From Streptomyces sp. NBC_01754 (GTDB lineage Bacteria > Actinomycetota > Actinomycetes > Streptomycetales > Streptomycetaceae), in the NCBI RefSeq assembly GCF_035918015.1, contig NZ_CP109132.1, forward strand, positions 930,001 through 994,000: 64,000 nucleotides of DNA. The letters are read 5' to 3'. The notes below the pieces were generated by a model. The model saw nothing but the letters and a program-made list of their open reading frames with translations, was not told the DNA's origin and did not search any database. This document shows, one piece after another, positions 33,764 to 63,548 of this stretch; the stretch's first letter is position 1; the number at the start of each line of letters is the position of its first letter. Both the position numbers and the translations under genes were made by a program.

Positions 33764-35434
33764 TCAGCCGGCATCCGTAAGACTCTTCAGGAACCTGGCC
33801 GCCACCGGCCCCGCGTCCGCGCCGCCCGAACCACCGTCCTCCAGCATCACGCACCACGCCAGGTCGCTGTCACCCTGGTAGCCGATCATCCAGGCATGGG
33901 TGCGCGGCGGCTTCTCCTGACCGAACTCCGCGGTCCCGGTCTTGGCGTGCGGCTCCCCGGGGATGCCCGTCAGGGCGCTGCCCGCTCCGTACGTCACCGT
34001 CGCCCGCATCATGTCGTGCAGTGCGCCGGTCACCGAGGGGGCGAGCCGCGCCGTCGCCTCGTGCTTCTTCTTGACCGCGTCGGGCACCAGCACAGGCTGC
34101 TTGAAGACGCCCTCCTTCACCGTCGCCGCGATCGACGCCATCACCAAGGGCGAGGCCTGTACCCGGGCCTGGCCGATGGTGGACGCCGCGAGGTCGTTGT
34201 CCGACGTACTCACCGGGACCGATCCGTCGTAGGTCGAGTCGCCGACGTCCCAGACGCCGCCTATCCCGAACGCCTCGGCAGCGTCGTGCAGGGCGGAGCC
34301 GCCCACCTTGGAGCGGTGCTCCACGAACATGGTGTTGCAGGATTTGGCGAAGGAGTCCCTGAAGGTCGAGCCGGACGGCAGCGTGAACTGGTTCTGGTTC
34401 TCGAACCGCTGCCCGTCGACGTGCGCGAACTTGGGGCACTCCACCACGTCCGCGGGCTTCATGCCCGCCTGGAGCATCGCCGCCGCCGTCACCACCTTGA
34501 AGGTCGATCCGGGCGGATACTGCCCGGCCAGCGCCCGGTTGAGGCCGCCGGCCGGCCGGTTGGAGACGGCCAGGATGTTCCCGGTCGAGGGCTCCACCGC
34601 GATCAGGGCCGCGTTCACCTTCAGCCCCTCCATCGCCTCGGCGGCGGCGCTCTGCACCTTCGGGTCGATGGTGGTCTTCACGGGTGTGCCCGGTTCTGCG
34701 GAGCTCTTGGTGAGGGATGTCTCGGCCTGGCCGGACTGGCGGTCGGCGATCACCACCTCGCTGGTGGCCGCGCCCCCGCCGCCCCGCAACTGCTTGTCAT
34801 AGCGTGCCTCGAGACCGGAGGTCCCCTTTCCCTGCTCGTCCACCGAGCCCCGCAACGAGGCCGCCTGCAGGTCGTCGCCGTTGGTGTCGAGCACGGCGGC
34901 ACGCTTGGCCACCGTCTTCAGCGCGAGGGTCTGTCCGGGCTTGAGCCGGGGGTGGACCATCGGGGAGCCGAACTCCACGGTCCACTGCTCCGCCTTCTTG
35001 ATCAGGGTCGCTTCGGAGTCGTAGCGGAAGAGGCCGACTGCCGGAACGGTGAACTTCGCGGTGTACGGGACGGTGACCTCGCCCTTGTCGTTCTTCTCGC
35101 CCTCCCCCGCCGACAGCTCCGCCTTGGAGGGTTTCAGGTTGGTCAGCACCGAGGTCAGCAGGGACTCGGCGTTCTCCGGGGAGTCGGACAGCGCCGCGGC
35201 CTTCTTGGGCTCGCCCGACGCCCACGCGTCAAGGAACGACTGGAGCCGCTCGGTAGCCGCGGTGACCTCGGGGTCCTCCTCCGGCCCGTCCCCCGACCAC
35301 GCCCGGTATCCCCACCAGCCCGCGCCCGCCGCCAGGACGACAGCCACCGCCACGCCCAGCACCGGTGCTCTGCGTGGTCCGCGACGCCTGGCCCGGTCAT
35401 GACGTGCCATCTGCTGCAACGTGGGTTCGGACAC
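33764..35434 (-). CDS. Penicillin-binding transpeptidase with NTF2-like domain
   Basis: 556 residues. One N-terminal membrane anchor (24-44) is followed by an NTF2-like MecA-N-type domain (about 55-165), a linker and a transpeptidase domain. Active-site motifs are complete: S310-T-F-K313 (GSTFK), S366-C-N and K499-T-G-T. It cross-links peptidoglycan outside the membrane. It lies immediately beyond cas on the same strand, 261 bp away. Clavam clusters typically carry PBP genes, and a low-affinity PBP would be useful near a beta-lactam pathway; whether this one is beta-lactam-insensitive cannot be read from the sequence. Confidence 0.93.
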   Translation of the reverse strand: MSEPTLQQMARHDRARRRGPRRAPVLGVAVAVVLAAGAGWWGYRAWSGDGPEEDPEVTAATERLQSFLDAWASGEPKKAAALSDSPENAESLLTSVLTNLKPSKAELSAGEGEKNDKGEVTVPYTAKFTVPAVGLFRYDSEATLIKKAEQWTVEFGSPMVHPRLKPGQTLALKTVAKRAAVLDTNGDDLQAASLRGSVDEQGKGTSGLEARYDKQLRGGGGAATSEVVIADRQSGQAETSLTKSSAEPGTPVKTTIDPKVQSAAAEAMEGLKVNAALIAVEPSTGNILAVSNRPAGGLNRALAGQYPPGSTFKVVTAAAMLQAGMKPADVVECPKFAHVDGQRFENQNQFTLPSGSTFRDSFAKSCNTMFVEHRSKVGGSALHDAAEAFGIGGVWDVGDSTYDGSVPVSTSDNDLAASTIGQARVQASPLVMASIAATVKEGVFKQPVLVPDAVKKKHEATARLAPSVTGALHDMMRATVTYGAGSALTGIPGEPHAKTGTAEFGQEKPPRTHAWMIGYQGDSDLAWCVMLEDGGSGGADAGPVAARFLKSLTDAG

Positions 35435-35622
35435 TTGGCGTTGTCTCCTCGTCTGCTGCGGATACGTCTCCCGCGACCGGACCGCCTCCGGTCACCTGTC
35501 CGACACGATAACCGCTGGCCAGTTGCGCCTGGCCACCACGAAGAGCGCCAGGAGAGTGAGCCGAGAGCTGACCGGGAACTCCGGCGCCCGCGCCGGGGAC
35601 AGGAGCCCGGGAGCGGGCAGCA

Positions 35623-35676: not shown

Positions 35677-35695
35677 GGCCATGAGGACGGGCCGG

Positions 35696-37621
<1,926 letters not shown>

Positions 37622-37674: not shown

Positions 37675-39204
37675 TCACTCGGTCTCCTTCAGCCGTGCGG
37701 CCACGTGTTCCACGGCGTCCGCGGTGCTCACCTCGGCGGGTGGCAGGCCCTCGACGACCACTCGGTCGAAGACCTCCCGCACCACCAGGGACTTGGCCTG
37801 GTGGATCTCGGCGTCCGGTACGCCGGCGTCCATCAGCAGGAGGCTGAAGGATGACGTCGTCCCCGAGCCCTCGTGCACGCCGAGCTTCGGCCGGGTGACC
37901 GTCTCCTGCGGCAGGAGATCGCTCATGGCCTCGCGCAAGACCCATTTGTCACGGCCGTGACGGCGTTTGAGTCCGGCCTCCAGCGACACCAGCAGGTCCA
38001 GTACGTCGCGGTCCCAGTACGGGTGGGTCGACCAGTGGCCCTGGATGCCGGAGAGCACCGGAGTCATCTCGTTGAGCCCGTCGAAGGTGGCCATGTCGGA
38101 CGCCACGGCCGTGTCCAGCTGAGGCAGCCGGTCCTCCCGGTGCATACCGGCGAGCGGGATGTCGGCCCCGTAGCCGGTGAGTATGCGGCGGGCGGGCCCG
38201 TCGAGCGCCCGGTACAGGGCGGTGAGCGGCAGCAGGTACTCGATGATGTCCGGATCGATGGACTCGGACGCCCAGACCGCGTACGGAAGCTGGGCGAGCA
38301 GGTCCGCCGTGGGGACGGTGATCTCCCTGTGGGCAGAGCCGAGATGGGTGGCGACCACGCGTGCCTCGGCGAACTCGTCCGAGGTGTCGGTGCCCATGGA
38401 CAGCGTGTCCAAGGGGCCGTCGGTGTGCGCGGCGGCGAGTGCGGCGACTCCGGAAGAATCGATTCCTCCGGAGAGCACCACCAATGGCGTGGTACCGCCC
38501 GTGCGCTCCCTGACGGCCCGCTCCAGCGCCTCACGCACGGCGGCAGTCGCGTCGGCCTCGGGCAGGACCCGCCGGGACACCGGCGGGGTCCAGGTCCGGG
38601 AGGGCACGGCGGTGCCTGTACGGACGCCGATGTCCAGCACCGTGCCGGCGGGCACCTGGTGGACACCCGGCACCCGGCGGACCCTGCGCGCCTCGGCGAC
38701 GGGCCGCCCGGACGGCGGGGCCTGCGCCGTCGCCGGGACGAGGGTCTTGATCTCGGTGGCGGCGAGGACCCGGCCGGGGGCCTGGAGGGTGTAGAGGGGG
38801 ACGGAGCCGGCGTGGTCGGTGGCCAGGAGCACCCGGTCACCGAGCGCTACGGCTGCCGCGAACCGGCCGTTGAGCAGCCGGAAGGCGTGCAGGTCGTAGA
38901 CACCCAGCAGGGCGAGCAGCAGTCGCGCGTCCGTACGGGCGTCGGTGCCGGCCGGGAGGAGGCTGAGCAGTTCCTCACGGTTGTAGAGCTCGCCGGCCAC
39001 GACGAGCGCCGTGTCCCCGGAGCGGGCCACGGCGTCCCCGGCCGAACCCGAGTGCACGAGTACGGCGTTCAGGGTCTGGGTACGGAGAGGTTCGGCCACG
39101 GTTGCGTGGGCGCCTCGGGTGGCGAAGACGGGCCCGGGGGCCCGGTCTCCGCCCTGCTGGACGGAGACCAGGAACCCCGTGGCGGCGGGGAACGTGTGCG
39201 CCAT
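37675..39204 (-). CDS. bls: Beta-lactam synthetase
   Basis: 509 residues, homologous to class B asparagine synthetase but without the glutaminase Cys after Met. The PPi loop is VVLSGGIDSSG (S245-S251). The catalytic residues of S. clavuligerus BLS (Y348, E382, K443) appear with a constant offset of three as Y345 (TGYGADIP), E379 (GLNEM) and K440 (RPKLGVHEGSG). It adenylates N2-(2-carboxyethyl)arginine and closes the monocyclic beta-lactam, deoxyguanidinoproclavaminate. Only 2 bases separate it from ceaS. Confidence 0.97.
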   Translation of the reverse strand: MAHTFPAATGFLVSVQQGGDRAPGPVFATRGAHATVAEPLRTQTLNAVLVHSGSAGDAVARSGDTALVVAGELYNREELLSLLPAGTDARTDARLLLALLGVYDLHAFRLLNGRFAAAVALGDRVLLATDHAGSVPLYTLQAPGRVLAATEIKTLVPATAQAPPSGRPVAEARRVRRVPGVHQVPAGTVLDIGVRTGTAVPSRTWTPPVSRRVLPEADATAAVREALERAVRERTGGTTPLVVLSGGIDSSGVAALAAAHTDGPLDTLSMGTDTSDEFAEARVVATHLGSAHREITVPTADLLAQLPYAVWASESIDPDIIEYLLPLTALYRALDGPARRILTGYGADIPLAGMHREDRLPQLDTAVASDMATFDGLNEMTPVLSGIQGHWSTHPYWDRDVLDLLVSLEAGLKRRHGRDKWVLREAMSDLLPQETVTRPKLGVHEGSGTTSSFSLLLMDAGVPDAEIHQAKSLVVREVFDRVVVEGLPPAEVSTADAVEHVAARLKETE

Positions 39205-39206
39205 GA

Positions 39207-41134
<1,928 letters not shown>

Positions 41135-42313
41135 ATGACCGGTACGACCACCCGGGACCCGGCGGGCTTCGTGGTACACACCGCCCCGGTGGGGCTCTCG
41201 GGCGACGGACGGGACGACTTCACGGTGCTGGCCTCGACCGTGCCCACGCAGGTCAGCGCGGTGTTCACCAAGTCACGCTTCTCCGGCCCGAGCGTGGTGC
41301 TCAGCCGTGCGGCAGCGGCCGACGGGCAGGCCCGCGGGGTGGTCGTCATCGCCCGGAACGCCAATGTGGCCACCGGCCCGGAGGGCGCGGGCAACGCCCT
41401 CGAGGTGCGGAACTCGGTGGCCGCCGCCACCGGGCTCTCCGAGGACGAACTGCTGATCGCCTCCACCGGGGTGATCGGCCTCCAGTACCCCATGGAGCAG
41501 ATCCGCTCGCACATCAAGACGCTCTCCTGGCCCTTCCCCGAGGGCGGCTTCGACCGTGCGGCGCGGGCCATCATGACGACCGACACCCGGCCCAAGGAGG
41601 TCAGGGTGCGGTGCGGCGGGGCGACACTCGTCGGCATCGCCAAGGGCGTGGGAATGCTGGAGCCCGACATGGCGACCCTGCTGACCTTCTTCGCCACCGA
41701 CGCCCTGCTGCCCCAGGACACACAGGACCGGATCTTCCGGAGCGTCATGGACCTCACGTTCAACGCGGTGTCCATCGACACCGACACGTCGACAAGCGAC
41801 ACAGCGGTCCTGTTCGCGAACGGGCTGGCCGGCGAGGTGGATCCGGCGGAGTTCGAGGAGGCGCTGCACGAGGTGGCGCTCGCCCTGGTGAAGAACATCG
41901 CATCCGACGGCGAGGGGGCGAGCAAGCTCGTCGAAGTGAGGGTCACGGGGGCCCGGGACACGGCGCAGGCCAAGCGTGTCGGCAAGACCGTAGTCAACTC
42001 ACCGCTGGTCAAGACTGCCGTGCACGGCAGCGACCCCAACTGGGGCCGGGTGACGATGGCCATCGGCAAGTGCACCGACGACACCGACATCCTCCAGGAG
42101 AACGTCACCGTCCGCTTCGGCGGGACCCTGGTCTACCCCCAGAGCGCCGACGGCCCCGGTGACGCCGAACTGCGGGCGGCGGTCGCCGAGCACATGCACG
42201 GCAGCGAGGTCGTGATCGGCATCGGACTGGGCATCGGCGACGGGGAGTTCACCGTCTACGGCTGCGATCTGACGGAGGGATACGTCCGGCTGAACTCCGA
42301 GTACACCACCTGA
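41135..42313 (+). CDS. oat: Ornithine acetyltransferase (clavam OAT)
   Basis: 392 residues, ArgJ family. The autocatalytic cleavage site KGVGMLEPDMATLLTFFATD places the nucleophile at T181 (between A180 and T181), the position known for OAT2 of S. clavuligerus (393 residues). The N-terminal Ntn-type fold and late SDPNWGRV are intact. OAT moves acetyl groups between N-acetylglutamate/N-acetylornithine and ornithine/glutamate; in clavam clusters it is thought to support arginine supply, but its exact need is unsettled. It is divergent from ceaS here, whereas in S. clavuligerus it follows cas in the same direction. Confidence 0.94.
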   Translation: MTGTTTRDPAGFVVHTAPVGLSGDGRDDFTVLASTVPTQVSAVFTKSRFSGPSVVLSRAAAADGQARGVVVIARNANVATGPEGAGNALEVRNSVAAATGLSEDELLIASTGVIGLQYPMEQIRSHIKTLSWPFPEGGFDRAARAIMTTDTRPKEVRVRCGGATLVGIAKGVGMLEPDMATLLTFFATDALLPQDTQDRIFRSVMDLTFNAVSIDTDTSTSDTAVLFANGLAGEVDPAEFEEALHEVALALVKNIASDGEGASKLVEVRVTGARDTAQAKRVGKTVVNSPLVKTAVHGSDPNWGRVTMAIGKCTDDTDILQENVTVRFGGTLVYPQSADGPGDAELRAAVAEHMHGSEVVIGIGLGIGDGEFTVYGCDLTEGYVRLNSEYTT

Positions 42314-42414: not shown

Positions 42415-43425
42415 ATGAGTCAGTCGCGAAGGTCGGTCCTCCAGGGTGCGTTGAGCGCCGGGGCGGCGGGGCTGCTGGTCGGCGGCGCCGCCCCGCTGCC
42501 GGCCGCACAGCCCCGCCGGGGATCCACACGCACAGCGCTCGGCCTGCGCTGGCTGGGCGTGGCCGGCTGGGAGTTGTCCTTCGCGGGCCGCAGCGTGCTC
42601 TTCGATCCCTACCTGAGCCGGATGCCCTACGCCGACAAGGACGGCGCCCTCGACCCGGCGCTGCCGCTGCGCCTGGCCCCGGAGGCGGTGGAGCACGTCG
42701 CGGAGAAGGAGCTGACCGGGGCGCCCGAGCTGATCCTGATCAGCCACGGGCACTTCGACCATCTCGCCGACGTGCCGCACCTGCTGTCGCGGCCGGGCTG
42801 GGACGGCCGGCGCATCAGGACACTCTGCGACACGACGTCGCGCCACCTGCTGGCCGCGCTGGGTACCCCCGCGCACCGTATGGCAGACGTGGTGGCGGTG
42901 AGCGGAGGCGACCATCTCCAGTTCGACGGCTACAGCGTGGAGGTGTTCCGCAGTCTGCACAGCAGGCAGCAGGACTACACGTCCTTCGCCCCCGGGACGC
43001 TGGACGCCGTCCCCGCCCGGCCCCGGACCCTGGGTGACCTGGTCGAAGGGCGGACGCTGGCCTTCCAGGTGTCCGTCGACGGGGGCCCGTCCGTGCTGCT
43101 GACCGGCACGAGCAACGTCGCGGAACGGGAACTGGTCAGCGCACGGCCCGATGTGGCGGTGATCGGGATGAGCGGCCACGCCGCCGTCCACGGCTACCCG
43201 GACCGGCTGCTGACCGCTCTGGGGTCACCACCCGTGCTCCTGCCCTGCCATCACGACGACATGGTGACCCCGCTGGGCGACCCGGGGATCGCCCGCACCG
43301 CCGCCCCGGACGCGGTGACGAGGCTGGCGCAGGCCGCCGAGCGCCGGGCACCGGACGGCGGCACACGCGTACTGGCGCCCCGGCATCTGGAGCTGCTCGA
43401 CGTCACCGGGCTCCCGGCGGCCTGA
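42415..43425 (+). CDS. Tat-exported metallo-beta-lactamase-fold hydrolase
   Basis: 336 residues from ATG 42415 (GAGGTG upstream). The N-terminus is a Tat signal (SRRSVLQGALSAGAAGLLVG, A-rich cleavage region to about 32). The metal motif is SHGHFDHL (H111, H113, D115, H116). The fold resembles UlaG/lactonase-type members rather than class B beta-lactamases. It is inserted between oat and the SARP gene and is not in the S. clavuligerus cluster. A hydrolase exported beside a beta-lactam pathway invites a self-protection or unrelated lipid/lactone role; neither is shown. Confidence 0.85.
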   Translation: MSQSRRSVLQGALSAGAAGLLVGGAAPLPAAQPRRGSTRTALGLRWLGVAGWELSFAGRSVLFDPYLSRMPYADKDGALDPALPLRLAPEAVEHVAEKELTGAPELILISHGHFDHLADVPHLLSRPGWDGRRIRTLCDTTSRHLLAALGTPAHRMADVVAVSGGDHLQFDGYSVEVFRSLHSRQQDYTSFAPGTLDAVPARPRTLGDLVEGRTLAFQVSVDGGPSVLLTGTSNVAERELVSARPDVAVIGMSGHAAVHGYPDRLLTALGSPPVLLPCHHDDMVTPLGDPGIARTAAPDAVTRLAQAAERRAPDGGTRVLAPRHLELLDVTGLPAA

Positions 43426-44610: not shown

Positions 44611-44766
44611 GGTCCTGTCTCACCGTGAGACGGCCGCACAGGAAGGACTCCACAGATTCGAGGAAACTGCCACATCGACCAGCGCATCCACAGACATCGC
44701 GTGCGAAAATCCAGCAGTTCATGGCAGGGGAATTCGGCCATGGACAGGCAGAAACAGGAGAGCCCC

Positions 44767-53456: not shown

Positions 53457-53580
53457 GGACGGCTTCCTTACGGTTATGGATGACGCCTCTTCTTCACCTG
53501 TGACGGCCTGTCGCGGCTCACGTTAGGCAGGCGTTCTCTTCTCCCGCTCCTCTCACCGGGAGCGGCCCCGGACAGCGCGA

Positions 53581-53612
53581 CGGCGGGCACCGCCGCAGAG
53601 CGGTGCCCGCCG
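53581..53612 (-). terminator. Terminator of car
   Basis: CGGCGGGCACCGC (53581-53593) pairs perfectly with GCGGTGCCCGCCG (53600-53612), 6-base loop, 13 bases after the car stop on the minus strand. Confidence 0.75.
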
Positions 53613-53625
53613 GGAAGGACGTGCG

Positions 53626-54369
53626 TCAGGCCTGGTCGGTGGGGCGGATGAAGATCTCGTTGACCGTGGCGTGCGGGGGCGCGGTGACGGCGTACAGGAC
53701 CGCGCCCGCGATGTCCTCGCTCCGCAACTGGCGTATCTTCGCGACCCGTTCGGTGATCGCGGCCTTGGAGGGGGCGTGGGTGATGTGGTCGCGCAACTCG
53801 GTCTCCACGGTGCCCGGCTCGATGACCACCACGCGTACGCCGCGTTCGGTGACCTCCTGGCGCAGCCCCTCGCTGAAGCCGTTGACGGCGAACTTGCTGG
53901 CGTTGTAGACGGCGCTGCCGCGTCCGACGACGCGGGCGGCGATGGACGAGATCTGGACGACCGTGCCCTGGTTACGGATCAGTTCCGGGAGCGCCGCGTG
54001 GGTCATGTACATCAGGCCCATGACGTTGGTGTCCATCATCCGGGTCCAGTCGGTGGTGTCGGCGTTCTCCACCGGTCCGAGCAGCATCAGTCCGGCGTTG
54101 TTCACCAGGATGTCGAGCCTGCCGAGCGTGTCGACGGTGAGGCGTACGGCGGCGGCCGCGGCCTGCTCGTCGGTGACGTCCAGGTCGAGGACGCGGGCGG
54201 TCGCGCCCTCGGCCTCCAGTTCGCCGCGCAGCGCTTCGAGGCGGTCTACACGGCGGGCGGCGAGGACGACCGAGGCCCCGGCTGCGGCAAGGGCGCGTGC
54301 GGTGGCCCGGCCGATTCCTGAGCTGGCTCCGGTGACGAGTGCGACTTTTCCCTGTAGCGATGAACTCAT
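53626..54369 (-). CDS. car: Clavulanate-9-aldehyde reductase (Car/Cad)
   Basis: 247 residues, the exact length of S. clavuligerus clavulanic acid dehydrogenase. Short-chain dehydrogenase features are complete: GASSGIG (14-20), NNAG (90-93), S142, Y155 and K159 (VYNASKF). The segments LLGPVENADTTDWTRMMDTN and the C-terminal ATVNEIFIRPTDQ are nearly those of Cad. It reduces clavulanate-9-aldehyde with NADPH in the last step. Its presence, with cyp and ferredoxin, points to a 5R clavulanic-acid route rather than 5S clavams. Confidence 0.96.
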   Translation of the reverse strand: MSSSLQGKVALVTGASSGIGRATARALAAAGASVVLAARRVDRLEALRGELEAEGATARVLDLDVTDEQAAAAAVRLTVDTLGRLDILVNNAGLMLLGPVENADTTDWTRMMDTNVMGLMYMTHAALPELIRNQGTVVQISSIAARVVGRGSAVYNASKFAVNGFSEGLRQEVTERGVRVVVIEPGTVETELRDHITHAPSKAAITERVAKIRQLRSEDIAGAVLYAVTAPPHATVNEIFIRPTDQA

Positions 54370-54630: not shown

Positions 54631-55863
54631 ATGACGCAGGACGCAGCGTCCCCGAAGGTGACGGCCGCGCCGTCCTACCCGATGGAGCGCGTCTCCCCGA
54701 TCGATCCGCCACCGCCGCTCGCCCTGTTGAGGTCCGGCCCCGCAGCGAGCCGGATCACGATGTGGGACGGCAGCCAGGTGTGGCTGGTGACGGCGCACCC
54801 GCATGTCCGGACGGTGCTGGCCGACCGCCGGTTCACCGCGGTGACCAGCGCCCCCGGCTTCCCGATGATGACGACCACGTCCGTCCTGGTGCGGGACAAG
54901 CCGCACACCGCCTCCTTCATCCGTATGGACGATCCGGACCATTCGCGGCTGCGGTCCATGCTCACCCGTGACTTCCTGCACGGCAGAGCGGAGTCGATGC
55001 GACCGGTGCTGCGGGAGCACCTGGACGAGATACTGGGCGCGCTGGTGAAGCGCGAGCGCCCGGTGGACCTGGTGCGCGGGCTGACGATCCCGGTCCCGTC
55101 GCGGGTCATCGCCCTGCTGTTCGGGGTCTCCGACGAGCAGCGCGAGCTGATCGAGAACCGGGCCGGGATCCTCATCGACCGCGGTTACCGCCCCGAGCAG
55201 GTCGCCGCCGCCCGCGACCAGCTGGACGGCCTGCTGCACGACGTGGTCGAGGAGCGCATGCGGATGCCCGAACCGGGCGACGACCTGCTGAGTCGGCTGG
55301 TGGTCGATCAGGTGCGCACGGGCAGGCTGACCGTCCAGGAGATGGTCCCGATGTGCCGGCTGCTGCTGGTGGCCGGGCACGGGACGACGACCAGTCAGGC
55401 CAGTCTCAGTCTGCTGAGTCTGGTCACCGACCAGGGCCTGGCCGACGCGCTGGCCAAGGCCCCGGAATTGCTGCCCAGGGCGGTCGAGGAGCTGTTGCGC
55501 TACCACTCCATCGTGCAGAACGGGCTGGCCCGTGCGGCGCTGGAGGACGTGGAACTGGGCGATGTCACGATCCGGGCCGGTGAGGGCGTGGTCGTGTCGC
55601 TGTCCGCGGGCAACCGCGACGACGCGGTCTTCCCGTCCCCCGACAGCCTGGACCCGCACCGGGACGCCCGCCGGCATCTGGCCTTCGGCCACGGCATCCA
55701 CCAGTGCCTGGGTCAGTGGCTGGCCAAGGTGGAGCTGGAGGAGATGCTGGCCGCCGTGCTGCGCTGGATGCCCGGTGCCCGGCTCGCCGTTCCGTTCGAG
55801 GAACTCGACTTCCGGCACGAGGTGTCCAGCTACGGGCTCGGCGCGCTGCCGGTGACCTGGTGA
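54631..55863 (+). CDS. cyp: Clavam cytochrome P450
   Basis: 410 residues from ATG 54631 (GGGAG upstream). P450 motifs are complete: I-helix VAGHGTTTSQ (248-254), ExxR at E287-R290 and heme loop FGHGIHQCLG with C359. S. clavuligerus CYP105M1 (cyp in the cluster) is essential for clavulanate and has been proposed to act in the step from N-glycyl-clavaminate toward clavaldehyde. The ferredoxin gene overlaps its stop by 4 bases, so the electron donor is coupled. It is divergent from car. Confidence 0.95.
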   Translation: MTQDAASPKVTAAPSYPMERVSPIDPPPPLALLRSGPAASRITMWDGSQVWLVTAHPHVRTVLADRRFTAVTSAPGFPMMTTTSVLVRDKPHTASFIRMDDPDHSRLRSMLTRDFLHGRAESMRPVLREHLDEILGALVKRERPVDLVRGLTIPVPSRVIALLFGVSDEQRELIENRAGILIDRGYRPEQVAAARDQLDGLLHDVVEERMRMPEPGDDLLSRLVVDQVRTGRLTVQEMVPMCRLLLVAGHGTTTSQASLSLLSLVTDQGLADALAKAPELLPRAVEELLRYHSIVQNGLARAALEDVELGDVTIRAGEGVVVSLSAGNRDDAVFPSPDSLDPHRDARRHLAFGHGIHQCLGQWLAKVELEEMLAAVLRWMPGARLAVPFEELDFRHEVSSYGLGALPVTW

Positions 55864-56072
55864 GCACCGGCCGGCTGACCGTGGCCGTGGACACGGACGT
55901 CTGCTGCGCGATGGGCCGGTGCGCGGCGACGGAGCCGAAGGTCTTCGGCCAGGCCACGGACAGCGGCACCGTCGTCCTGCTTCTGGCCGAACCTCCGGCC
56001 GAACTGCGCGAGTCGGTCCGGCTGTGCGCCGATCTCTGCCCGTGTTCGGCCATCACCGTCACCGAAGATTGA
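55860..56072 (+). CDS. fd: Ferredoxin, [3Fe-4S] type
   Basis: 70 residues. The GTG start lies within the cyp stop (GTGA), which fixes it. Cys ligands are in DVCCAMGRCAA and LCADLCPCSAI, the pattern of actinobacterial P450-partner ferredoxins. It passes electrons to the P450 beside it. Confidence 0.95.
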   Translation: MSTGRLTVAVDTDVCCAMGRCAATEPKVFGQATDSGTVVLLLAEPPAELRESVRLCADLCPCSAITVTED

Positions 56073-56104: not shown

Positions 56105-57412
56105 ATGATGATCGATCTGCCCGGTTCCGACGCCTCCGTCCGCCCGAACGCGCAGGCCGTGCTCGACGCGGACGACACCACCCTCGGGCGGCGTACCCAC
56201 TGGGCGGTGGAACTGCTCACCACCCCCGAGACACCCCGGGACGAGGACCTGTCCGGGAACTTCGTGCCCGCCTTCCTCGCCCGGCATCCACAGGGGTTCG
56301 CGGCGACGCTCGAACAGTGGCGCGGCCAGGGCCGCTTCACCGTCACCGACTACCAGCCGGTGGCACACAAGTCGTGGGTGACCCTGGAAGGGCCGACGGG
56401 GTCGCGCTCCACGCTGTCGCTGACGCTCGACTCCACCGGCCTGATCCGGGTGCTGCACCTGGGCCCGGAGGTGGTGACGCCCCCGGTGCGCGCGTGGTCC
56501 GACCTGGCGCGGGCGCTGGAGCAGCCGGGGGTGACGTGGTCGGCACTGGTGACCCGGACGGACGGTGGGTCGGCCGAGACCCTGTACGCCAAGGACGCCG
56601 ACCGGCCGATGCCCAACGGCTCCTCGTACAAGTTGTATCTGATGCGGGCGCTGGCGGAGGCGGTGGCCACGGGCGCCGTGCGGTGGGACGACGAGGTGAC
56701 CGTCACACCGGCCCTGCGCAGCCTGCCCACCGGGGACATGCAGGAACTGCCGGACGGCACCCGGGTCCCGGTGCGCGAGACGGCGTACAAGATGATCGCG
56801 ATGAGCGACAACACCGCCGCCGACCTGATCCAGGACCTGCTCGGCCGGGACGCGGTGGAGCGCGCCGTGGTGGACGGCGGTCACAGCGATCCGGCGCTAC
56901 TGCGACCGTTCCTGACGAGCCATGAGGTCTTCGAGATCGGCTGGGGCGCCTCTGAGCTGCGGGCCGGGTGGGCGGCTTCGGACGAGGCCGGCCGCAGGCG
57001 TCTGCTGGAGCGGATCGCCGGCCCGATCACCGTGCGCGGCTCCGATCTCGGTCCGACCGTGCACCAGTTGGGCCTGGACTGGCACATGAGCGCCTGGGAC
57101 GTGGCACGGGTCCTGGGCGCACTGGTGGAGGACGGGGTACGGGACGCGAGCGGGGTCGTGAACGCCGTGCTCACGGCATACCCCGGGGTCCCGATCGACT
57201 CGGCCCGCTGGCCTCGCGCTGTGTTCAAGGGCGGTTCGTGCCCCGGGGTGATGATGTTCTGCTGGCTGCTCGAGGACGCTGGCGGCGTCCGGTACACAAT
57301 CGTGCTCCAGCAGTGTGCCGACGACCAGAAGCTGATCGGTGACGGGCAGTTCCTGCGGGGCGTGGGCGGCCGCGTCATCGAATCCAGCCTGCTCTCCGGT
57401 ACCTCCCGGTGA
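56105..57412 (+). CDS. orf12: Orf12: beta-lactamase-like protein of the clavulanate pathway
   Basis: 435 residues from ATG 56105 (GAGGAG upstream; a second ATG follows directly). The N-terminal domain (to about 125) corresponds to the steroid-isomerase-like domain of ORF12. The C-terminal domain is class A beta-lactamase-like with SSYK at S173-K176 and SDN at S234-N236, both at the published S. clavuligerus numbers, and FKGGS in place of KTG. ORF12 is essential for clavulanate, has weak cephalosporin esterase activity, and has been linked to the double inversion to 5R. Its TGA overlaps the start of orf13. Confidence 0.95.
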   Translation: MMIDLPGSDASVRPNAQAVLDADDTTLGRRTHWAVELLTTPETPRDEDLSGNFVPAFLARHPQGFAATLEQWRGQGRFTVTDYQPVAHKSWVTLEGPTGSRSTLSLTLDSTGLIRVLHLGPEVVTPPVRAWSDLARALEQPGVTWSALVTRTDGGSAETLYAKDADRPMPNGSSYKLYLMRALAEAVATGAVRWDDEVTVTPALRSLPTGDMQELPDGTRVPVRETAYKMIAMSDNTAADLIQDLLGRDAVERAVVDGGHSDPALLRPFLTSHEVFEIGWGASELRAGWAASDEAGRRRLLERIAGPITVRGSDLGPTVHQLGLDWHMSAWDVARVLGALVEDGVRDASGVVNAVLTAYPGVPIDSARWPRAVFKGGSCPGVMMFCWLLEDAGGVRYTIVLQQCADDQKLIGDGQFLRGVGGRVIESSLLSGTSR

Positions 57413-58395
57413 CCGCCAGGGACCGGTCCCTGGCCGTGCTGGTGGCCGTGCTCTGGGGGCTGAACTTCCTCGCGGTGCGGGTCGGCCTCGACCACTTCCC
57501 GCCGTTCTTCCTCGCGGCGCTGCGGTATCTGGTGCTGGCCGTGCCGGTCGTCCTGTTCGTGCCGCGCCCCGGGGTGCGGCTGCGCTGGCTTCTCGGGTAC
57601 GGACTGGGCTTCGGTGTGGCCCAGTTCGGACTGTTGTTCCTCGCCATCGAACAGGGCATGCCGTCGGGTCTGGCGTCCGTGGTGGTGCAGGCGTCGGCGC
57701 CGTTCACCGTGCTGCTGGGGGCACTGCTCCTGCGCGAGCGGGTCACCCGGCGGCAGCTGGCCGGAATCGGGCTGGCGGTGGTGGGGATGGCCGTGATCGC
57801 CGTGGACCGGGCGCGGACGGCGCCGCTGCTGCCACTGGTGCTGACCGTGCTCGCCGCCTTCGGCTGGGCGGTCGGCAACCTGGCGAGCCGCCAGGCGAAG
57901 CCCCGGTATCCCTTGCGTTTCGCGCTGTGGATGGCGGTGGTCCCACCGCTGCCGCTGTTGGCGCTGTCGGCCGTGATGGAGGGACCGGACACGGGATGGC
58001 GGGCGTTGGGGTCGGCGTTCGGCCCCGGCGGCTGGCCGAGCCTGGTCGCACTCGTCTACATCGCGGTGCTGGGCAGCGTCGTGGGATCCGGGATCTGGAC
58101 GGCGCTGCTCAAGCGCTACCCGGCCGGTGTGGTGGCGCCGTTCTCGATGCTGGTGCCGGTGGTCGGTATGGCGGGTGCCTGGCTGGCGTTGCACGAGCGG
58201 CCCACGGGGTGGGCGGTGGCCGGTGGGACGGCCGTGGTCGCCGGGGTGCTTCTCGGAACGGGCTGGCTGCCGCGCTTCCTGCGCGGGCGTACGGGCGGTA
58301 CGGCTGCCCCCCGTCCCCGAGGAGGCGGGGGGCGAACACCGGACAGTCAGCCGGCCGGGGCGACCGGCGCCTCCCAGGAGACCCAGCGTTCCTGA
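57409..58395 (+). CDS. orf13: Orf13: EamA/DMT-family exporter
   Basis: 328 residues with ten hydrophobic segments in two EamA repeats: LAVLVAVLWGLNFLAVRVGL at the start, and the second half with TVLAAFGWAVGNLASRQAK and YPAGVVAPFSMLVPVVGMAG. Orf13 is the proposed exporter of clavulanic acid or a precursor. The GTG start overlaps the orf12 stop (GTGA). Its 3' end overlaps the convergent orf14 by 49 bases. Confidence 0.92.
   Translation: MTARDRSLAVLVAVLWGLNFLAVRVGLDHFPPFFLAALRYLVLAVPVVLFVPRPGVRLRWLLGYGLGFGVAQFGLLFLAIEQGMPSGLASVVVQASAPFTVLLGALLLRERVTRRQLAGIGLAVVGMAVIAVDRARTAPLLPLVLTVLAAFGWAVGNLASRQAKPRYPLRFALWMAVVPPLPLLALSAVMEGPDTGWRALGSAFGPGGWPSLVALVYIAVLGSVVGSGIWTALLKRYPAGVVAPFSMLVPVVGMAGAWLALHERPTGWAVAGGTAVVAGVLLGTGWLPRFLRGRTGGTAAPRPRGGGGRTPDSQPAGATGASQETQRS
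58306..58333. terminator. Hairpin in the overlapping orf13/orf14 ends
   Basis: GCCCCCCG (58306-58313) pairs with CGGGGGGC (58326-58333) around 12 bases that can pair further. It lies within the end of orf13 and just past the orf14 stop. Confidence 0.5.
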
Positions 58396-59378
58396 GGGAC
58401 GAAGCCCATGGCCTCGTTGAGGGCGATCATCGGACGGTTGTCGTCGGCGTTGGCCGTCTCGATCAGCCGTACCCGGGGTTCGTACTCCCGTACATGGGCG
58501 AGGTTGGCGAGCTTGAGCAGCAGACCCAGGCGGTGGCCCCGGTGGGCGGACGCCACCACCGTCATGCCCTGGAGGGCGTACTCCGGGTTGCCTGTGGTCT
58601 TGGAGGCGCTGGTGAAGCCGGCCAGCTCCCCGGTCTCCTCGTGGACCGCGCCCACATGGTAGGCACGCCGCCCGCGGCCCACCCGCATGCGCTCGTAGCG
58701 CCGCACATGACTGGTGCGGATCGCCTCGGGCCGCCGGTCCCAGGTTTCGGGCGGGCTCTCGCCGAGCGACTGGCCGAGTTCGGACACGGCTGTCGCGAAC
58801 GCGTCGGGCGTGACGGTCCCCCAGCGCTGGAGCCGGTAACCGGCCGGGACCGCGGGGATCCCGTCGGCCAGCGGATCGTGCGCGTCCAGGTCGAGCCACT
58901 GGTGGACGCCCTCCGGGCCGTCGGACGGGGTGGCACCCAGCGCCGCCGCGAACGCGGCCGGGCCTGTGTCCCGGGGCGGACCACCGGGCAGCGCCTGGAC
59001 CAGATCGGCGACCAGGAGTGTGCGGCCGTGCTGTCCGGCCAGGGCGTGGGCCCGTCGGAACAGGGCGGTCCCGATCCCCTGGCGGCGCTCCTTGCGCGCG
59101 GTCAGCAACTGGTCGACGGCGGCGACCGGTGCCCCGTCCGGGAGCACGAGGCGCAGCGCCCCGACGGCCTGCCCGCCGAGGAAGGCGACCTCGCCGGCGA
59201 GGGTGGTGTCCGGCGGTGCGAAGCGCACCGAGCCGACCAGGTCGGCCGCGCAGGGTGGGGCGGCCGACGGCGGGACGTCCTCGGCACTGTCCGTGGTCAG
59301 CCTCAGCCAGGCGTCGAGCGTGCCCGTGTCACCGGCGTCCAGCGGGACGAACCGGAGATCCTCTGCGGTGTTGTTCAT
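58347..59378 (-). CDS. orf14: Orf14: tandem GNAT acetyltransferase-like protein
   Basis: 343 residues with two GNAT folds. The first has LLTARKERRQGIGTALFRRA (about 92-111), a good acetyl-CoA loop; the second has VVASAHRGHRLGLLLKLANL (about 278-297) and ends with NEAMGFVPQERWVSWE. Orf14 of S. clavuligerus binds acetyl-CoA in its N-terminal half; its substrate is not known, although knock-outs lower clavulanate. The ATG at 59378 overlaps the oppA2 stop, fixing the start and the operon gcaS-orf16-oppA2-orf14. Confidence 0.93.
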   Translation of the reverse strand: MNNTAEDLRFVPLDAGDTGTLDAWLRLTTDSAEDVPPSAAPPCAADLVGSVRFAPPDTTLAGEVAFLGGQAVGALRLVLPDGAPVAAVDQLLTARKERRQGIGTALFRRAHALAGQHGRTLLVADLVQALPGGPPRDTGPAAFAAALGATPSDGPEGVHQWLDLDAHDPLADGIPAVPAGYRLQRWGTVTPDAFATAVSELGQSLGESPPETWDRRPEAIRTSHVRRYERMRVGRGRRAYHVGAVHEETGELAGFTSASKTTGNPEYALQGMTVVASAHRGHRLGLLLKLANLAHVREYEPRVRLIETANADDNRPMIALNEAMGFVPQERWVSWEAPVAPAG

Positions 59379-61087
59379 ACGGAGTCGTTCTCCCGGTCGG
59401 TGCGGGTGTCGGTGACGCCCATGGCCTGGATGTCGTACAGGCCGAAGGCGGGGTGTACATAGGCGTTGGTGACGCGAGGGCCCCGGTAGTGCAGGGTCTT
59501 GTCGTGGACCAGCGGGAGGATGACCGCATGCTCCATGACCCGGCGCTCCACCTCGCGCCACAGTTCGGCGCAGGTACCGGGGTCGGCGGTGTGCAGCCCC
59601 GTGTCGATCAGTTCGTTGATCTCGGGGTCGTCGAGTTCGGCGATGTTCCAGTTGCCGCCGCCGGGCCGGATCAGCCGGCCGTCCACCAGGGGTGCCAGGA
59701 AGCCGTACTCGGTGGGGAAGTCGGCGCCCCAGTCGGTGACGATCAGGCCGAGTCCGTGCTTGCGGACGGTCTCCGGTGAACCCGCGCCCTGGCTGAAGTA
59801 GGTGGCGACGTCGAGTTCCTTGACGGTCAGCCGGATGCCGACCCGGGCGACGGACTCCACGACCGCGTCGGCGACCAGCCGGAACTTGCCCCGCTGGGTG
59901 CCGATGACCGCGTCGAAACCGTCGGGCAGCCCGGCGGCCCGGAGTTCGGCGCGGGCGGCGTCGAGGTCGCCACGCAGATCCGGGCCGGTCGGGTAACGGT
60001 CCAGCGCCTGGTGGGCGGCAAGCCTCGGCGGGAAGAGCGCCGTGGTCAGATCGCCTCCGGTGACGGGCCCGCCCCGGGCCGTCTGGAGCAGGATCTTGTC
60101 GGCCGCGTAGTGCACGGCCCGGCGTACGTGCACGTTGTCGAAGGGCGGTATGTGGGGCTGGAGCGAGACGAAGTGCAGGAAGCTCGTCTTCGGGTTGTCG
60201 GTGCGTGAGCGCAGCACGGGATCACCGGCGAGGCGGTGCTGGGCGGCGTGCTGGAGGCCACGGCCCTCCAGGTTCACGTCGAACTCCCCCGCCGTCAGCC
60301 GCTCGTCCATCTCGTCCGGGTCGAGGCCGATGGTGACGTCCACCCGGTTCGGGAGCGCGAGCCGCACGGGGTCGGTGGACCGGTCCCAGTGGGGGTTGCG
60401 TTCCAGCTGGAGTCTGCTTCCCGGTCGGTGCTCGGCGACACGGTAGGGACCGGTGCAGCGCGGGTCCTCGCCGTAGCGAGCGCCGGTGTCGGCCCGCCGG
60501 GGCACCGGGGAGACGCAGGGCTGGGCCATCAGGTGGTCGAAGTCGGAGAACGGGGCGCGCAGCCGGAAGACGATCGTGCGCGGGTCGGGGGTGAGCACGG
60601 CGGGCAGGCCGTCCTCGCCGCCGTCCCGGTAGGGCCCGGCGTACGGGCGGTCCGGGTCGTCCAGGAGCGGCACCAGGTAGGTGGGGCCGCCGGGGAGCAC
60701 GTCCTGGGCGAAGATCCGCTGGACGGCGTAGCGTACGTCGTCCGAGGTCACCGGGGTGCCGTCGTCGAAGCGGACGCCTTCGCGGAGCCGGTAGGTCCAG
60801 GTCCGGCAGCCGTCGCTCGGCACCCCCGGTGCCTCGGCCAGGTCGGGTACGGGGACGAGACCCGCCGGGCCCGGGTCGGTGGGGTAGGCCATCAGAGTGC
60901 GGTTGAGCAGGCGTTGCAGCAGCCACACCCAGACGTAGTAGGTCCGTGCGGGGTCGAGGGAGTCGACATCGGCGGAGGAGACCAGGCGCAGGGTGCCCCC
61001 GCGCCGGTCGGAGGGGTTGACCCTCGCTCCGACAGCGGCGTTCCAGCCTCCGCTCTCTCGCTCCTGAAGGTCGGTGGCGTCGCTCAT
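59375..61087 (-). CDS. oppA2: Oligopeptide-binding protein OppA2
   Basis: 570 residues of solute-binding family 5, with RRGGTLRLVSSADVDSLDPA, TWTYRLREGVRFDDGTPVT, NPHWDRSTDPVR and WGADFPTEYGFLAP. OppA2 is required for clavulanate in S. clavuligerus and mutants accumulate N-glycyl-clavaminate derivatives, so it acts after GcaS. As in OppA1 no signal peptide or lipobox is visible at the chosen ATG (61087), which overlaps the orf16 stop by 4 bases; a longer frame upstream lacks one too. Confidence 0.94.
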   Translation of the reverse strand: MSDATDLQERESGGWNAAVGARVNPSDRRGGTLRLVSSADVDSLDPARTYYVWVWLLQRLLNRTLMAYPTDPGPAGLVPVPDLAEAPGVPSDGCRTWTYRLREGVRFDDGTPVTSDDVRYAVQRIFAQDVLPGGPTYLVPLLDDPDRPYAGPYRDGGEDGLPAVLTPDPRTIVFRLRAPFSDFDHLMAQPCVSPVPRRADTGARYGEDPRCTGPYRVAEHRPGSRLQLERNPHWDRSTDPVRLALPNRVDVTIGLDPDEMDERLTAGEFDVNLEGRGLQHAAQHRLAGDPVLRSRTDNPKTSFLHFVSLQPHIPPFDNVHVRRAVHYAADKILLQTARGGPVTGGDLTTALFPPRLAAHQALDRYPTGPDLRGDLDAARAELRAAGLPDGFDAVIGTQRGKFRLVADAVVESVARVGIRLTVKELDVATYFSQGAGSPETVRKHGLGLIVTDWGADFPTEYGFLAPLVDGRLIRPGGGNWNIAELDDPEINELIDTGLHTADPGTCAELWREVERRVMEHAVILPLVHDKTLHYRGPRVTNAYVHPAFGLYDIQAMGVTDTRTDRENDSV

Positions 61088-62262
61088 CGTGTAGTCGTCT
61101 CCCGGTCGTCGGCAGGCTCGCCCGCGGTGTCTTCGGTACGGGATATCGGCAGCAGGTAGGAGCGCTGCTCGCTGGCCTGACAGCCGCGGGCGAGCTTGGC
61201 CTTGACGCTGCCGACCCCGGCGTGCAGGACGGTCGCGCCCTCCTTGGCTGCGGCGTCCAGCACCTGGTAGTACAGGACGTCGTAGTAGAGCGGCAGCTTG
61301 CCCTGGGCCTCGTAGTCGAACCCGGCGCGGTGGCCGAACCACTGCTCCTCGCCGCGGGCCCGGGACCGCAGCACCATGCCGAAACCGATGACGGTGCCGC
61401 GCTGCCGGGCCACGGAGACCAGGACGTCGTCCCCCATGATCTCGGCGATCCGGCCGATCATGCGGCCTGAGCCCTCGTCGCTGGCGGGATTGCCGTACTT
61501 GCGCAGGAGGTTGGCGTCGAGCTGTCCGAGGCGGGGGGCGAGCGCCCGGGTGAGCGGTTCGACGTTCACCTCGACGCCCGCGTCAGCGAGCGCCCGGCGT
61601 TCCAGGCGCACCCGGCGGCGGCGGTGCGCGCTCATCTCCTCGACGAACTGCTCGAAGCCGCCCGGCGGGATGTCCAGCCAGGCGTAGTGGTCGGAGGGGT
61701 GGTGGTGGTAGCCGCGGCGCTCCAGCAGGGCGACCAGAGAGGTGTCGCGTACGTCGACGTGCGGGAAGCAGACGGTGGCCGCTCCCCGGTCCGCCGCCAT
61801 CGCCTCGGCCCTCTCCAGCAGAGCGGTGAGGTCGTCCTCGGTGGCGTCGGGGGAGGTGAGCGTCCGGGTGCGGCCCAGATGCCGCCCTCCGCACACCAGG
61901 GAGGGCAGCAGGCTGTCCGGGTCGCCCCCGGCGACATCGCGCAGCACGCCGGCCGCCTCGGGGACCTCCTGCTCCAGGGCGCGCCTGAGCATGGCGTCCG
62001 GCCGGGCGAGCAGCCAGGCGGCGGACGCGTCGGCCCAGGCGGTCACCAGCCCGGCGACCGGGGCACCGCTCCGCTCGCGCAACAGGAAGTCCATCGCCGT
62101 ACCGGAGTTGTGTTCCTGGACAGTGAGCCACCGGGGGGTCTGGAAGAAGTCCTCCGCCCTCAGCAGCGAACTCCAGCCGTCCGCCTCCAGTCCGGCCGCG
62201 TTCCCGACCGCCCGTACGCCGTCCGGTCCCGTCGGCACGGCGGGTTCGGTGTACAGGCTCAC
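61084..62262 (-). CDS. orf16: Orf16: FemAB/GNAT-like protein
   Basis: 392 residues of the peptidogalycan/FemAB-like acyltransferase group, with FEQFVEEMSAHRRRRVRLER (about 204-223) and GHRAGFDYEAQGKLPLYYDV, a Tyr-rich segment typical of these proteins. Orf16 is a conserved clavulanate-cluster gene; its reaction is not established, although an aminoacyl- or acetyl-transfer is likely. The GTG start at 62262 lies within the stop of gcaS. Confidence 0.9.
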   Translation of the reverse strand: MSLYTEPAVPTGPDGVRAVGNAAGLEADGWSSLLRAEDFFQTPRWLTVQEHNSGTAMDFLLRERSGAPVAGLVTAWADASAAWLLARPDAMLRRALEQEVPEAAGVLRDVAGGDPDSLLPSLVCGGRHLGRTRTLTSPDATEDDLTALLERAEAMAADRGAATVCFPHVDVRDTSLVALLERRGYHHHPSDHYAWLDIPPGGFEQFVEEMSAHRRRRVRLERRALADAGVEVNVEPLTRALAPRLGQLDANLLRKYGNPASDEGSGRMIGRIAEIMGDDVLVSVARQRGTVIGFGMVLRSRARGEEQWFGHRAGFDYEAQGKLPLYYDVLYYQVLDAAAKEGATVLHAGVGSVKAKLARGCQASEQRSYLLPISRTEDTAGEPADDRETTTR

Positions 62263-63548
62263 CGAAGCTCTTCCTCGACGACGAAGTCCAGCAGGGCGGC
62301 GGCCTTGTCCGCGGACTCCCGGGCCTCGGCCAGGTCGGGGCCGTTGCAGTAGGTGAAGCCGACGCAGGAGGAGTTGTCCATGCGCTGGAGCAGGTGATCA
62401 CCCTTCTCGACGTGCAGCAGCACCTGGACGTTCTCCACGGCCGCCGCGGCCTCCAGCCCGTCGATGCGTGCGAGGGTTCCGCGTCGGGTCGGGTAGATCA
62501 TGCGGACCGCGGCGCCACCGCGGTGGACGACGGGCTCGATCGGCGGGGCGACGCCGATGGTGAGCAGCCAGGCGTCCAGGATCGGGCTGCGACCGGTGAC
62601 GTCGGTGACCAGCATGGTCATGCAGCTGGACGGGGTGCGCGGGTTGGCCTCGATGATCCGCCAGCCGGACACGGTGCGCCGGACCTCGGTGTGGCAGGGT
62701 CCGTGCCGGTAGCCGATCGCCTCCAAGGTCCTACGGACCACGTCGTACAGCTCGTCGCGCTCGTCATCGGGGAGCGGCACGGGGAAGGTGTGCCCGCACT
62801 CGATGTAGGCGGGGTCACCGAAGAGGTCCTTGGAGGTGACGCCGAAGACATGGGTGTGCCCGTCCACGGTCATCGTTTCGACGCTGACCTCCTCGCCCTC
62901 GACGTACTGCTCCAGCAGGACGTCACCGGTGCGCGGCTGGCCGCGCAGGCTGTGCCGGACGGCAGACAGCTCCTCCCACGCCTCGATGAGTCCGGCCATG
63001 TCGTCGACCCTGCGCACCCCGTAACTGATCGCTTCGGCCGGAGGCTTGGCGATCATGGGGAAGCCGAGCCGGCGGGCCGCCTCGTCGAGCTGCCCCCGGT
63101 GACTCACCAGCACATGCGGGATGTTGAACGGCTGGTCGCCGAGCGCGATCCGCAGCTGGTCCTTGATGTTGGCGGTGCGCACGGCAGCCGGGTCCGGTCC
63201 GGGCAGGCCGAGACGGCGTGCGGCGTGGGCCGCGAGCTCGGTGTGGTAGTCGGAGAACGAGGTGAGGCCGTCCACCAAGGGCGTGCCGTCATCGCCGGTG
63301 ACCACGGCCAGTACCGCGTCGAGATCGGTGGTGTCCACGTCGATCACCCGGTCGACGATGGCCAGCGGATGAGTTTCCCAGTAGTGTCCGTGGGTGTACC
63401 AGGATCGATCACCCGTCAGCATCCATACTTCGAGGCCGAATTCCTGAGCCTGTTTCAGCCCCAGGACGAAGGGATGGTTCTGCATGTGCTCGACGATCGC
63501 GATCCGCTTTCCGGTGAACTGCGCGTAGTCAGCCAGAGGTGTTGTCAT
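62259..63548 (-). CDS. gcaS: N-glycylclavaminate synthase, ATP-grasp
   Basis: 429 residues with an ATP-grasp fold: N-terminal RIAIVEHMQNHPFVLGLKQA, lysine-bearing FPMIAKPPAEAISYGVRRVD, VLLEQYVEGEEVSVETMTVD, and the metal site IIEANPRTPSS. GcaS (Orf17) of S. clavuligerus ligates glycine to clavaminate, the first step that commits to clavulanate. It heads the gcaS-orf16-oppA2-orf14 operon, in which every junction overlaps. Confidence 0.95.
   Translation of the reverse strand: MTTPLADYAQFTGKRIAIVEHMQNHPFVLGLKQAQEFGLEVWMLTGDRSWYTHGHYWETHPLAIVDRVIDVDTTDLDAVLAVVTGDDGTPLVDGLTSFSDYHTELAAHAARRLGLPGPDPAAVRTANIKDQLRIALGDQPFNIPHVLVSHRGQLDEAARRLGFPMIAKPPAEAISYGVRRVDDMAGLIEAWEELSAVRHSLRGQPRTGDVLLEQYVEGEEVSVETMTVDGHTHVFGVTSKDLFGDPAYIECGHTFPVPLPDDERDELYDVVRRTLEAIGYRHGPCHTEVRRTVSGWRIIEANPRTPSSCMTMLVTDVTGRSPILDAWLLTIGVAPPIEPVVHRGGAAVRMIYPTRRGTLARIDGLEAAAAVENVQVLLHVEKGDHLLQRMDNSSCVGFTYCNGPDLAEARESADKAAALLDFVVEEELR

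Follow-up and report, generated by a model that had tools for sequence, protein, structure and literature searches.

A 64,000-nucleotide stretch of Streptomyces sp. NBC_01754 (positions 930,001 to 994,000 of contig NZ_CP109132.1, here called the window; G000:C1:930001-994000 in our genome set) carries a complete clavulanic acid-type gene cluster at 33.8-63.5 kb, delimited by codon-position GC gene calling, Pfam, NCBIfam and comparison with solved structures. Judged from its genes, it is a clavulanic acid-like cluster of the Streptomyces pratensis type in a new strain of an already described type. Candidate boxes for a SARP activator stand at pcbR, between ceaS and oat and between nocE and oppA1, with no strong one at claR; this pattern is new in this analysis, and we do not claim that it is absent from print. 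The reading we favour, with a probability of roughly 45%, is that a complete pratensis-type cluster is divided into two separately switched halves, that its claR box is missing or decayed, and that the late half awaits another signal.

In the proposed scheme the SARP would bind triple-heptamer boxes and switch on pcbR for self-protection, ceaS-bls-pah-cas and oat for the early pathway, and oppA1 and nocE. In the producer gene order the same kind of box precedes claR, whose product would then turn on the late genes; in the pratensis-type clusters (type A below) the box appears to be missing or decayed, and the link to claR would have been lost. The late half, comprising car, cyp-fd-cpe-orf13, orf14, oppA2, orf16 and gcaS, would await another signal, and laboratory cultures would therefore get no further than early monocyclic intermediates. 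Because the late genes are intact and purifying selection acts on them, the whole pathway probably remains in use in nature.

The comparison covered 15 full clusters from the genus set and from named genomes, with the S. albiflavescens record used for G228, which by its coordinates appears to be the same assembly. Type A, the pratensis order, comprises the present strain (G000), G068, G081, G248, G088 (Kitasatospora papulosa) and G261 (S. clavifer), to which the partial clusters of SM10 and S. silvae were added, giving eight type-A strains in all. Type B, the clavuligerus order, comprises S. jumonjinensis, M41, S. albiflavescens, G056, G224, G233 and G001, and type E comprises G073 and G098. 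Also added were four clusters whose early operon contains gcaS (type C) and seven that have early genes only (type D). S. clavuligerus, whose chromosomal cluster lies outside the comparison, is represented by published descriptions and by its plasmid record, which matches ceaS, bls and pah at 59-71% and yields no gcaS or cpe match. Across the 392 genomes of the genus, BLS is matched at E<=1e-60 in 25 and Cpe at E<=1e-25 in 13; GcaS is matched at E<=1e-60 in 16, of which 13 reach 82-100% identity and coincide with the genomes that have Cpe.

Aligned promoters of the six complete type-A clusters contain heptamers every 11 bases. The ceaS/oat intergenic box (40982..41010, plus strand) reads CTCTCCA-N4-CTCTCCA-N4-CTATCCG, with identical heptamers in all six strains, and the nocE/oppA1 intergenic box (50137..50165, plus strand) reads CTCTCCA-N4-CTCTCAC-N4-CTCTCCC. 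Scanning roughly 36 kb revealed one further site, directed at pcbR (35539..35567, minus strand; p<1/1500), and all three sites are found in 6/6 complete type-A clusters; four weaker or shifted hits occur besides, each in a single strain. In this strain the pcbR box scores 18.9, while in 40 shuffles scores of at least 14 occurred 0.28 times on average and the maximum was 18.7.

For a second test a matrix built from the six ceaS-upstream boxes only was applied to the other promoters and compared with 1500 shuffled windows. Upstream of claR the triple box scores above all 1500 shuffles in 6/7 type B and 2/2 type E clusters (8/9 together), whereas it does so in 0/8 type-A strains, seven of which give triple p values of 0.09-0.54; double-heptamer p values in type A are 0.031-0.11. 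The claR promoter region of the present strain (53457..53625, minus strand) has no strong SARP box (triple p 0.29, double p 0.067). With the matrix of type-A boxes, from which rows at stretch edges (nocE of S. albiflavescens and G224, mbl of G098) were excluded, the picture is much the same: claR scores are 16-22 in six of seven type B clusters, 18 in both type E clusters and 6-12 in six type-A clusters. The contrast of 0/8 with 8/9 gives p 0.0004 in a Fisher test in which the types are clades and the strains therefore not independent. Among the remaining promoters, no triple match falls below p 0.076 at cyp or car, or below p 0.036 at gcaS, in any strain; a match at oppA1 occurs in one type B strain as well (G224, p 0.0007). 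In the car-cyp promoter no 8-10-base k-mer is common to all type-A strains and at least four others. Visual inspection shows, ahead of cyp (54513-54531), a GTTATG-type repeat that recurs in several cluster types and is a candidate ClaR site.

According to the accessible text of PMC3992018, CcaR binds triple heptamers, and its binding regions in S. clavuligerus include those upstream of ceaS2 and claR. For S. pratensis, the accessible portion of PMC12482188 describes expression of ceaS2, oat2 and oppA1 and none of cyp, cpe, orf13, orf14 and oppA2. These active and inactive genes coincide with the presence and absence of boxes, which fits an early-on, late-off pattern of expression.

Several observations weigh against this regulatory reading. 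SM10, a type-A strain, has a weak claR triple match (p 0.0087), two type-A strains have weak double matches (p 0.031 and 0.049), and G261, also of type A, scores 12 at claR with the matrix of type-A boxes, just above its 99% line (11.1). Even in S. jumonjinensis, whose production is proven, claR is preceded by no more than a double heptamer (p 0.0007; triple p 0.033), and the ceaS/oat box points towards oat. The cluster types being single clades, the claR contrast may reflect one evolutionary event. A 2013 paper on S. flavogriseus is said to have found ccaR and claR transcribed and cyp, orf12, orf13 and oppA2 not, in which case the block would fall after claR transcription. What makes the cluster interesting is the regulatory reading; it can be tested, and this one reported result contradicts it in part. 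Finally, the accessible text of PMC6478378 states that S. flavogriseus cpe, even when expressed constitutively, fails to complement a cpe mutant of S. clavuligerus; wiring thus cannot be the whole story for clavulanate.

Selection on the late genes was estimated as the ratio of nonsynonymous to synonymous substitutions (dN/dS, Nei-Gojobori) in six type-A strains, pooled per gene and with fd left out. The early genes (ceaS, bls, pah, cas, oat and oppA1) give 0.09-0.20 and the late genes (car, cyp, cpe, orf13, orf14, oppA2, orf16 and gcaS) 0.13-0.33 (Mann-Whitney p 0.18), the highest value being that of orf14 (0.33), which includes an over-extended start overlapping oppA2. Type B, which includes a producer, gives 0.10-0.32 for early and 0.15-0.38 for late genes (p 0.14), and on the G000 branch alone late-gene values are 0.08-0.46. 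Frame-breaking lesions were considered as a cause of silence and rejected: no late gene is broken in the six type-A strains, and apparent internal stops in mbl, sarp, cyp, oppA2 and orf14 stem from over-extended starts. The late genes are thus intact and, by these estimates, which have no relaxed-selection control to set against them, evolve under purifying selection with no sign of decay.

The Cpe protein (cpe/orf12, 56105..57412, plus strand), with ORF_12_N and beta-lactamase-like domains and a match to 2xep, retains the SxxK motif (as SSYK) and the SDN motif. Its third catalytic motif is KGG, as in 6/6 type A and 2/2 type E clusters, rather than the KAG found in 7/7 type B clusters. Three of the KAG-bearing type B genomes are without a close lat (M41, best match 30%; G224 and G233, none at E<=1e-60), while S. 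albiflavescens, G056 and G001 have a 60-61% lat homologue that is not beside the cluster. This distribution suggests that KGG or KAG follows cluster lineage and not linkage to cephamycin genes. In the accessible part of PMC6478378, KGG is given for two non-producers and KAG for three producers. The first-pass annotation had described a clavulanic acid-type cluster, possibly of the silent pratensis kind. The type holds; laboratory cultures are unlikely to yield clavulanic acid, since none was detected for the published type and the motif is that of non-producers. For that type, PMC12482188 as accessible gives early monocyclic beta-lactams as the predicted products, clavulanate not being detectable.

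The same motif opens a rather unlikely alternative, in which the complete pathway, using the KGG-type Cpe, yields a late clavam that is not clavulanic acid and is active in nature, looking silent because the wrong product has been sought. Purifying selection on the late genes and the clean split of KGG (8/8 type A/E) from KAG (7/7 type B) along lineage are in line with it, and the accessible text of PMC12482188 allows another, unidentified clavam. However, the late genes were untranscribed in the cultures published there, so that the product has never been sought under inducing conditions. We also consider, though we doubt it, that the lineage is rewired and not dead. The SARP would then drive only self-protection and the early half, the intermediates of which would be beta-lactamase inhibitors in their own right. 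The loss of one box would have uncoupled claR and the late half, which would respond to a separate signal, and the complete pathway, kept by selection, would make a late non-clavulanate clavam through the KGG Cpe. If so, KAG clusters that have a claR box in genomes lacking a close lat (M41, G224 and G233) would be predicted to be able to make clavulanic acid.

A further possibility, which we regard as quite unlikely, is that the late half is not just silent but also defective: Cpe, perhaps along with further late enzymes, would have lost clavulanate function, and the cluster would be kept only for early monocyclic intermediates that inhibit beta-lactamase. The failed cpe complementation and the KGG motif agree with such a defect, as does the prediction by liquid chromatography-mass spectrometry, in the accessible text of PMC12482188, of early precursors only in S. 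pratensis and JAC18. Set against it are the unbroken late frames of the six type-A strains, late-gene dN/dS values that do not differ from early ones and are no higher than in type B, and a GcaS that shares 82-93% identity with its counterparts in 12 other full clusters. That this is a clavulanic acid cluster of the ordinary kind in shuffled order, able to make clavulanate if induced, is improbable even though all core genes are present and match solved pathway proteins, because no clavulanate is given for S. pratensis or ten related isolates with this cluster type in the accessible text of PMC12482188, and Cpe carries the non-producer motif in a type whose cpe does not complement (PMC6478378, as accessible).

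The SARP is encoded by a ccaR-like gene (44740..45555, plus strand; start at 44740 or 44767) and has a BTAD domain. Identity of the type-A SARP is 58% with the one that adjoins the thn genes in S. cattleya and 43% with the one linked to lat in S. jumonjinensis, and in the SARP tree it falls outside the CcaR clade (100/100), its own sister group not being settled. A plain swap of regulator for a ThnU-type SARP was dropped, the join with the S. cattleya SARP having a support of only 71/28. The approximately unbiased (AU) test of A+B+E for the SARP was not used, three rows inside the CcaR clade having been left out of it.

Upstream of the SARP gene lies a promoter-like element, TTGACG-17-TACTGT (43881..43909, plus strand), proposed from conservation only; its TTGACG is kept in 8/8 type-A strains, and a sigma-70 scan does not call the element. 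Between it and the SARP start codon this strain alone has 692 extra bases, absent from 7/7 other type-A strains. They form a decayed IS3-family remnant (43987..44678, unstranded) with imperfect terminal inverted repeats (43987-44010 and 44645-44669) and CGA at both junctions, which is about 70% identical to IS3-family elements with a large internal deletion and contains a short transposase-like reading (E 0.0012, under the Pfam cut-off). One partial relative is found elsewhere in the genome (86% over 99 bases). The remnant may weaken the early switch in this strain; the SARP dN/dS of 0.08 on the G000 branch argues that the SARP is still used. The SARP leader also contains a perfect 12-base palindrome, CTACGCGCGTAG (43941-43952), identical in 6/8 type-A strains, which is a possible operator.

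In a tree of concatenated CeaS-BLS-PAH-CAS each order type forms one clade, with S. jumonjinensis nested in type B. The concatenated early enzymes place type A outside C+E+B, and the AU test rejects A+B+E (p 1.8e-6). The oat tree contradicts this, rejecting B+E+C (p 0.00097), and neither BLS nor PAH settles the matter. A single clean branching order of cluster types was therefore dropped, and no type is claimed as ancestral.

All genes listed in the first-pass annotation (ceaS, bls, pah, cas, oat and oppA1 to gcaS) are present with open frames, and the inversion of the early operon relative to oat is evident from the gene map. The early operon and pcbR lie on the minus strand. pcbR/pbpR (33764..35434), a further usual cluster member present in 15/15 full clusters, encodes a penicillin-binding protein of 556 residues with MecA_N and transpeptidase domains (Pfam). 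It is followed by cas for clavaminate synthase (35696..36670; matching 6vwq and 1drt), pah for proclavaminate amidinohydrolase (36667..37617; 1gq6), bls for beta-lactam synthetase (37675..39204; 1jgt) and ceaS for carboxyethylarginine synthase (39207..40922; 1upa over its whole length), the start of ceaS being set at the 571-residue reading within a frame open to 40967. On the plus strand, oat for ornithine acetyltransferase (41135..42313; 1vz6) is followed by blaB1/orf11 (42415..43425), which encodes a metallo-beta-lactamase (MBL)-fold protein identified by Pfam and its HGHFD motif, and by the SARP gene.

Between the SARP gene and nocE sits a small open frame of 97 residues (45617..45910, minus strand) with only a sub-threshold DUF6234 match, which occurs in 6/7 other type-A strains and not in G248. 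The nocE homologue (45968..50044, minus strand) encodes 1358 residues with a GDSL-type hydrolase domain (Pfam) and is found in 6/7 other type-A strains, the seventh contig (S. silvae) stopping before it. It is followed by oppA1 for a substrate-binding protein (50271..51932, plus strand; Pfam SBP_bac_5).

The gene for the LysR-type regulator ClaR (51984..53456, minus strand; Pfam HTH_1 and LysR_substrate) is given as the longest frame, within which the true start may lie. Clavulanate dehydrogenase is encoded by car (53626..54369, minus strand; 2jah). On the plus strand, cyp for a cytochrome P450 (54631..55863; Pfam) and fd for a ferredoxin of 70 residues (55860..56072; Pfam Fer4_13; in 15/15 full clusters) precede cpe, and orf13 for an EamA-type transporter (57409..58395; Pfam) follows it. 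The minus strand then carries orf14 for an acetyltransferase (58347..59378; matching 2wpw from residue 1, by which its start was placed), oppA2 for a substrate-binding protein (59375..61093; start estimated from its match to 2wok), orf16 for a FemAB-like acyltransferase (61084..62262; Pfam) and gcaS for N-glycyl-clavaminate synthetase (62259..63548), an ATP-grasp protein by Pfam. Nine of the ten proteins tested (CeaS, BLS, PAH, CAS, OAT, clavulanate dehydrogenase, ORF12, ORF14 and OppA2) match solved clavulanate-pathway proteins, which we take to come from S. clavuligerus; the tenth, GcaS, matches only L-amino acid ligase 3vot among solved structures.

A separation of oat and oppA1 by about 9 kb of unrelated genes had been proposed. 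The separation is real, at about 8 kb (oat end 42313, oppA1 start 50271), but the genes in it belong to the cluster: the MBL-fold blaB1/orf11, the SARP and nocE occur in every type-A cluster compared, as far as sequence reaches, and about 0.7 kb of the gap is the IS3-family remnant seen in this strain alone. In S. jumonjinensis an MBL-fold gene and a SARP stand near the gene read as lat, which supports equating them with orf11/blaB1 and ccaR. The MBL-fold gene, the SARP and nocE are also published as parts of this cluster type in the accessible texts of PMC9146315, PMC6856088 and PMC12482188. The first of these gives the S. pratensis/flavogriseus order as an oat-cas block and an oppA1-gcaS block with blaB1 and ccaR in between, and the other two also note pcbR, orf11 and nocE. 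Against that text the window has the same order, and its gene set is likewise that of the type (the core from ceaS to gcaS with pcbR, blaB1/orf11, a ccaR-like SARP and nocE). The likeness to the S. pratensis ATCC 33331 cluster extends to pcbR with cas-pah-bls-ceaS inverted to oat, to blaB1/orf11, SARP, nocE and oppA1 to gcaS, and to the lack of a cephamycin cluster alongside (here by the lat search); it rests on published text (PMC12482188, PMC9146315 and PMC6856088, as accessible), not on DNA alignment.

Producer clusters (S. jumonjinensis as compared, S. clavuligerus from papers) share all core genes from ceaS (ceaS2) to gcaS with the window. They differ from it in gene order, the clavuligerus order, as seen in S. 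jumonjinensis and the other type B clusters, not being found here. They also differ in the adjacent cephamycin genes, in the KAG of Cpe, in the strong claR SARP box and in a SARP that falls inside the CcaR clade. A 5S clavam or early-only cluster does not fit either, as car, cpe and gcaS are all present. The type E clusters (G073 and G098) have the same core genes and KGG in Cpe but another order, in which claR and ceaS are transcribed divergently and have a SARP box in common. The type C clusters (WZ.A104, A3M-1-3, S. wedmorensis, CNQ085, G288 and G326) share the early genes, gcaS, orf16, oppA1, oppA2 and SARP, but gcaS stands between bls and pah. The stretches compared contain no homologue of claR, cyp, cpe or orf13 and only unrelated-looking 32-34% matches to car, and Cpe is not found at E<=1e-25 in the whole genomes of G288 and G326. 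Type C clusters (stretches L020-L023, L060-L063, L073 and L074) may make glycyl-clavaminate-type products.

In producers, pcbR, blaB1/orf11 and ccaR belong to the cephamycin side. The absence of cephamycin genes from view, as annotated at first, is borne out for the biosynthetic genes as represented by lat alone and does not apply to pcbR, blaB1/orf11 and the ccaR-like gene, which are present. No close lat is found in the whole genome (best match 31%, none at E<=1e-60; pcbAB and pcbC were not searched), and by this search the adjacent cephamycin genes of producers are lacking. When the carbapenem synthetase of the S. cattleya thn locus is used as query, BLS itself (36%) is the only match, other carbapenem genes not having been searched. 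Going by these two marker genes, lat and carbapenem synthetase, the strain is without a second beta-lactam cluster. Among the eight type-A genomes searched, several of them draft assemblies, two (G068 and G088) contain a carbapenem synthetase homologue (65%).

An assignment to S. flavogriseus/pratensis itself or to a relative had been suggested, and only the relative is tenable. ATCC 33331 has a genome of 7.34 Mb (PMC6856088) and carries an MM 4550-like carbapenem cluster (PMC12482188, both as accessible), whereas here the genome is 7.77 Mb in two contigs, with a main contig of 7,738,802 bases (7.74 Mb), no carbapenem synthetase homologue was found, and the IS3 remnant lies in the SARP leader. 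The window is thus not from ATCC 33331. Weak, equal matches to the BLS query at G000:C1:29546-29707 and 7709094-7709255 are mirror-wise equidistant from the two termini of that contig, a sign that it may carry terminal inverted repeats about 29 kb long or longer.

In G098, C1 carries the clavulanate-like cluster together with homologues of carbapenem synthetase (72%) and lat (79%), near 2.65, 4.40 and 4.42 Mb, the latter two about 19 kb apart. Ten proteins flanking the present cluster have no match within the few kb searched on either side of it in other type-A strains; although these stretches are short, the cluster seems to have different surroundings across the type. It is adjoined by a gene for an Rv2525c-like glycoside hydrolase with a peptidoglycan-binding domain (30218-32719), where GC dips to 65%, and a 63% relative of this protein stands beside the type C cluster of G326.

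The silence of the S. pratensis cluster has reportedly been an open question at least since a 2013 paper of that title. A missing claR SARP box together with late genes under selection turns this silence into a directly testable question. The KGG/KAG split and the claR box provide a simple sequence rule for choosing which other clavulanate-like clusters to examine as sources of beta-lactamase inhibitors, and the switch sites in the DNA offer a possible reason for the halfway stop of such clusters under laboratory conditions.

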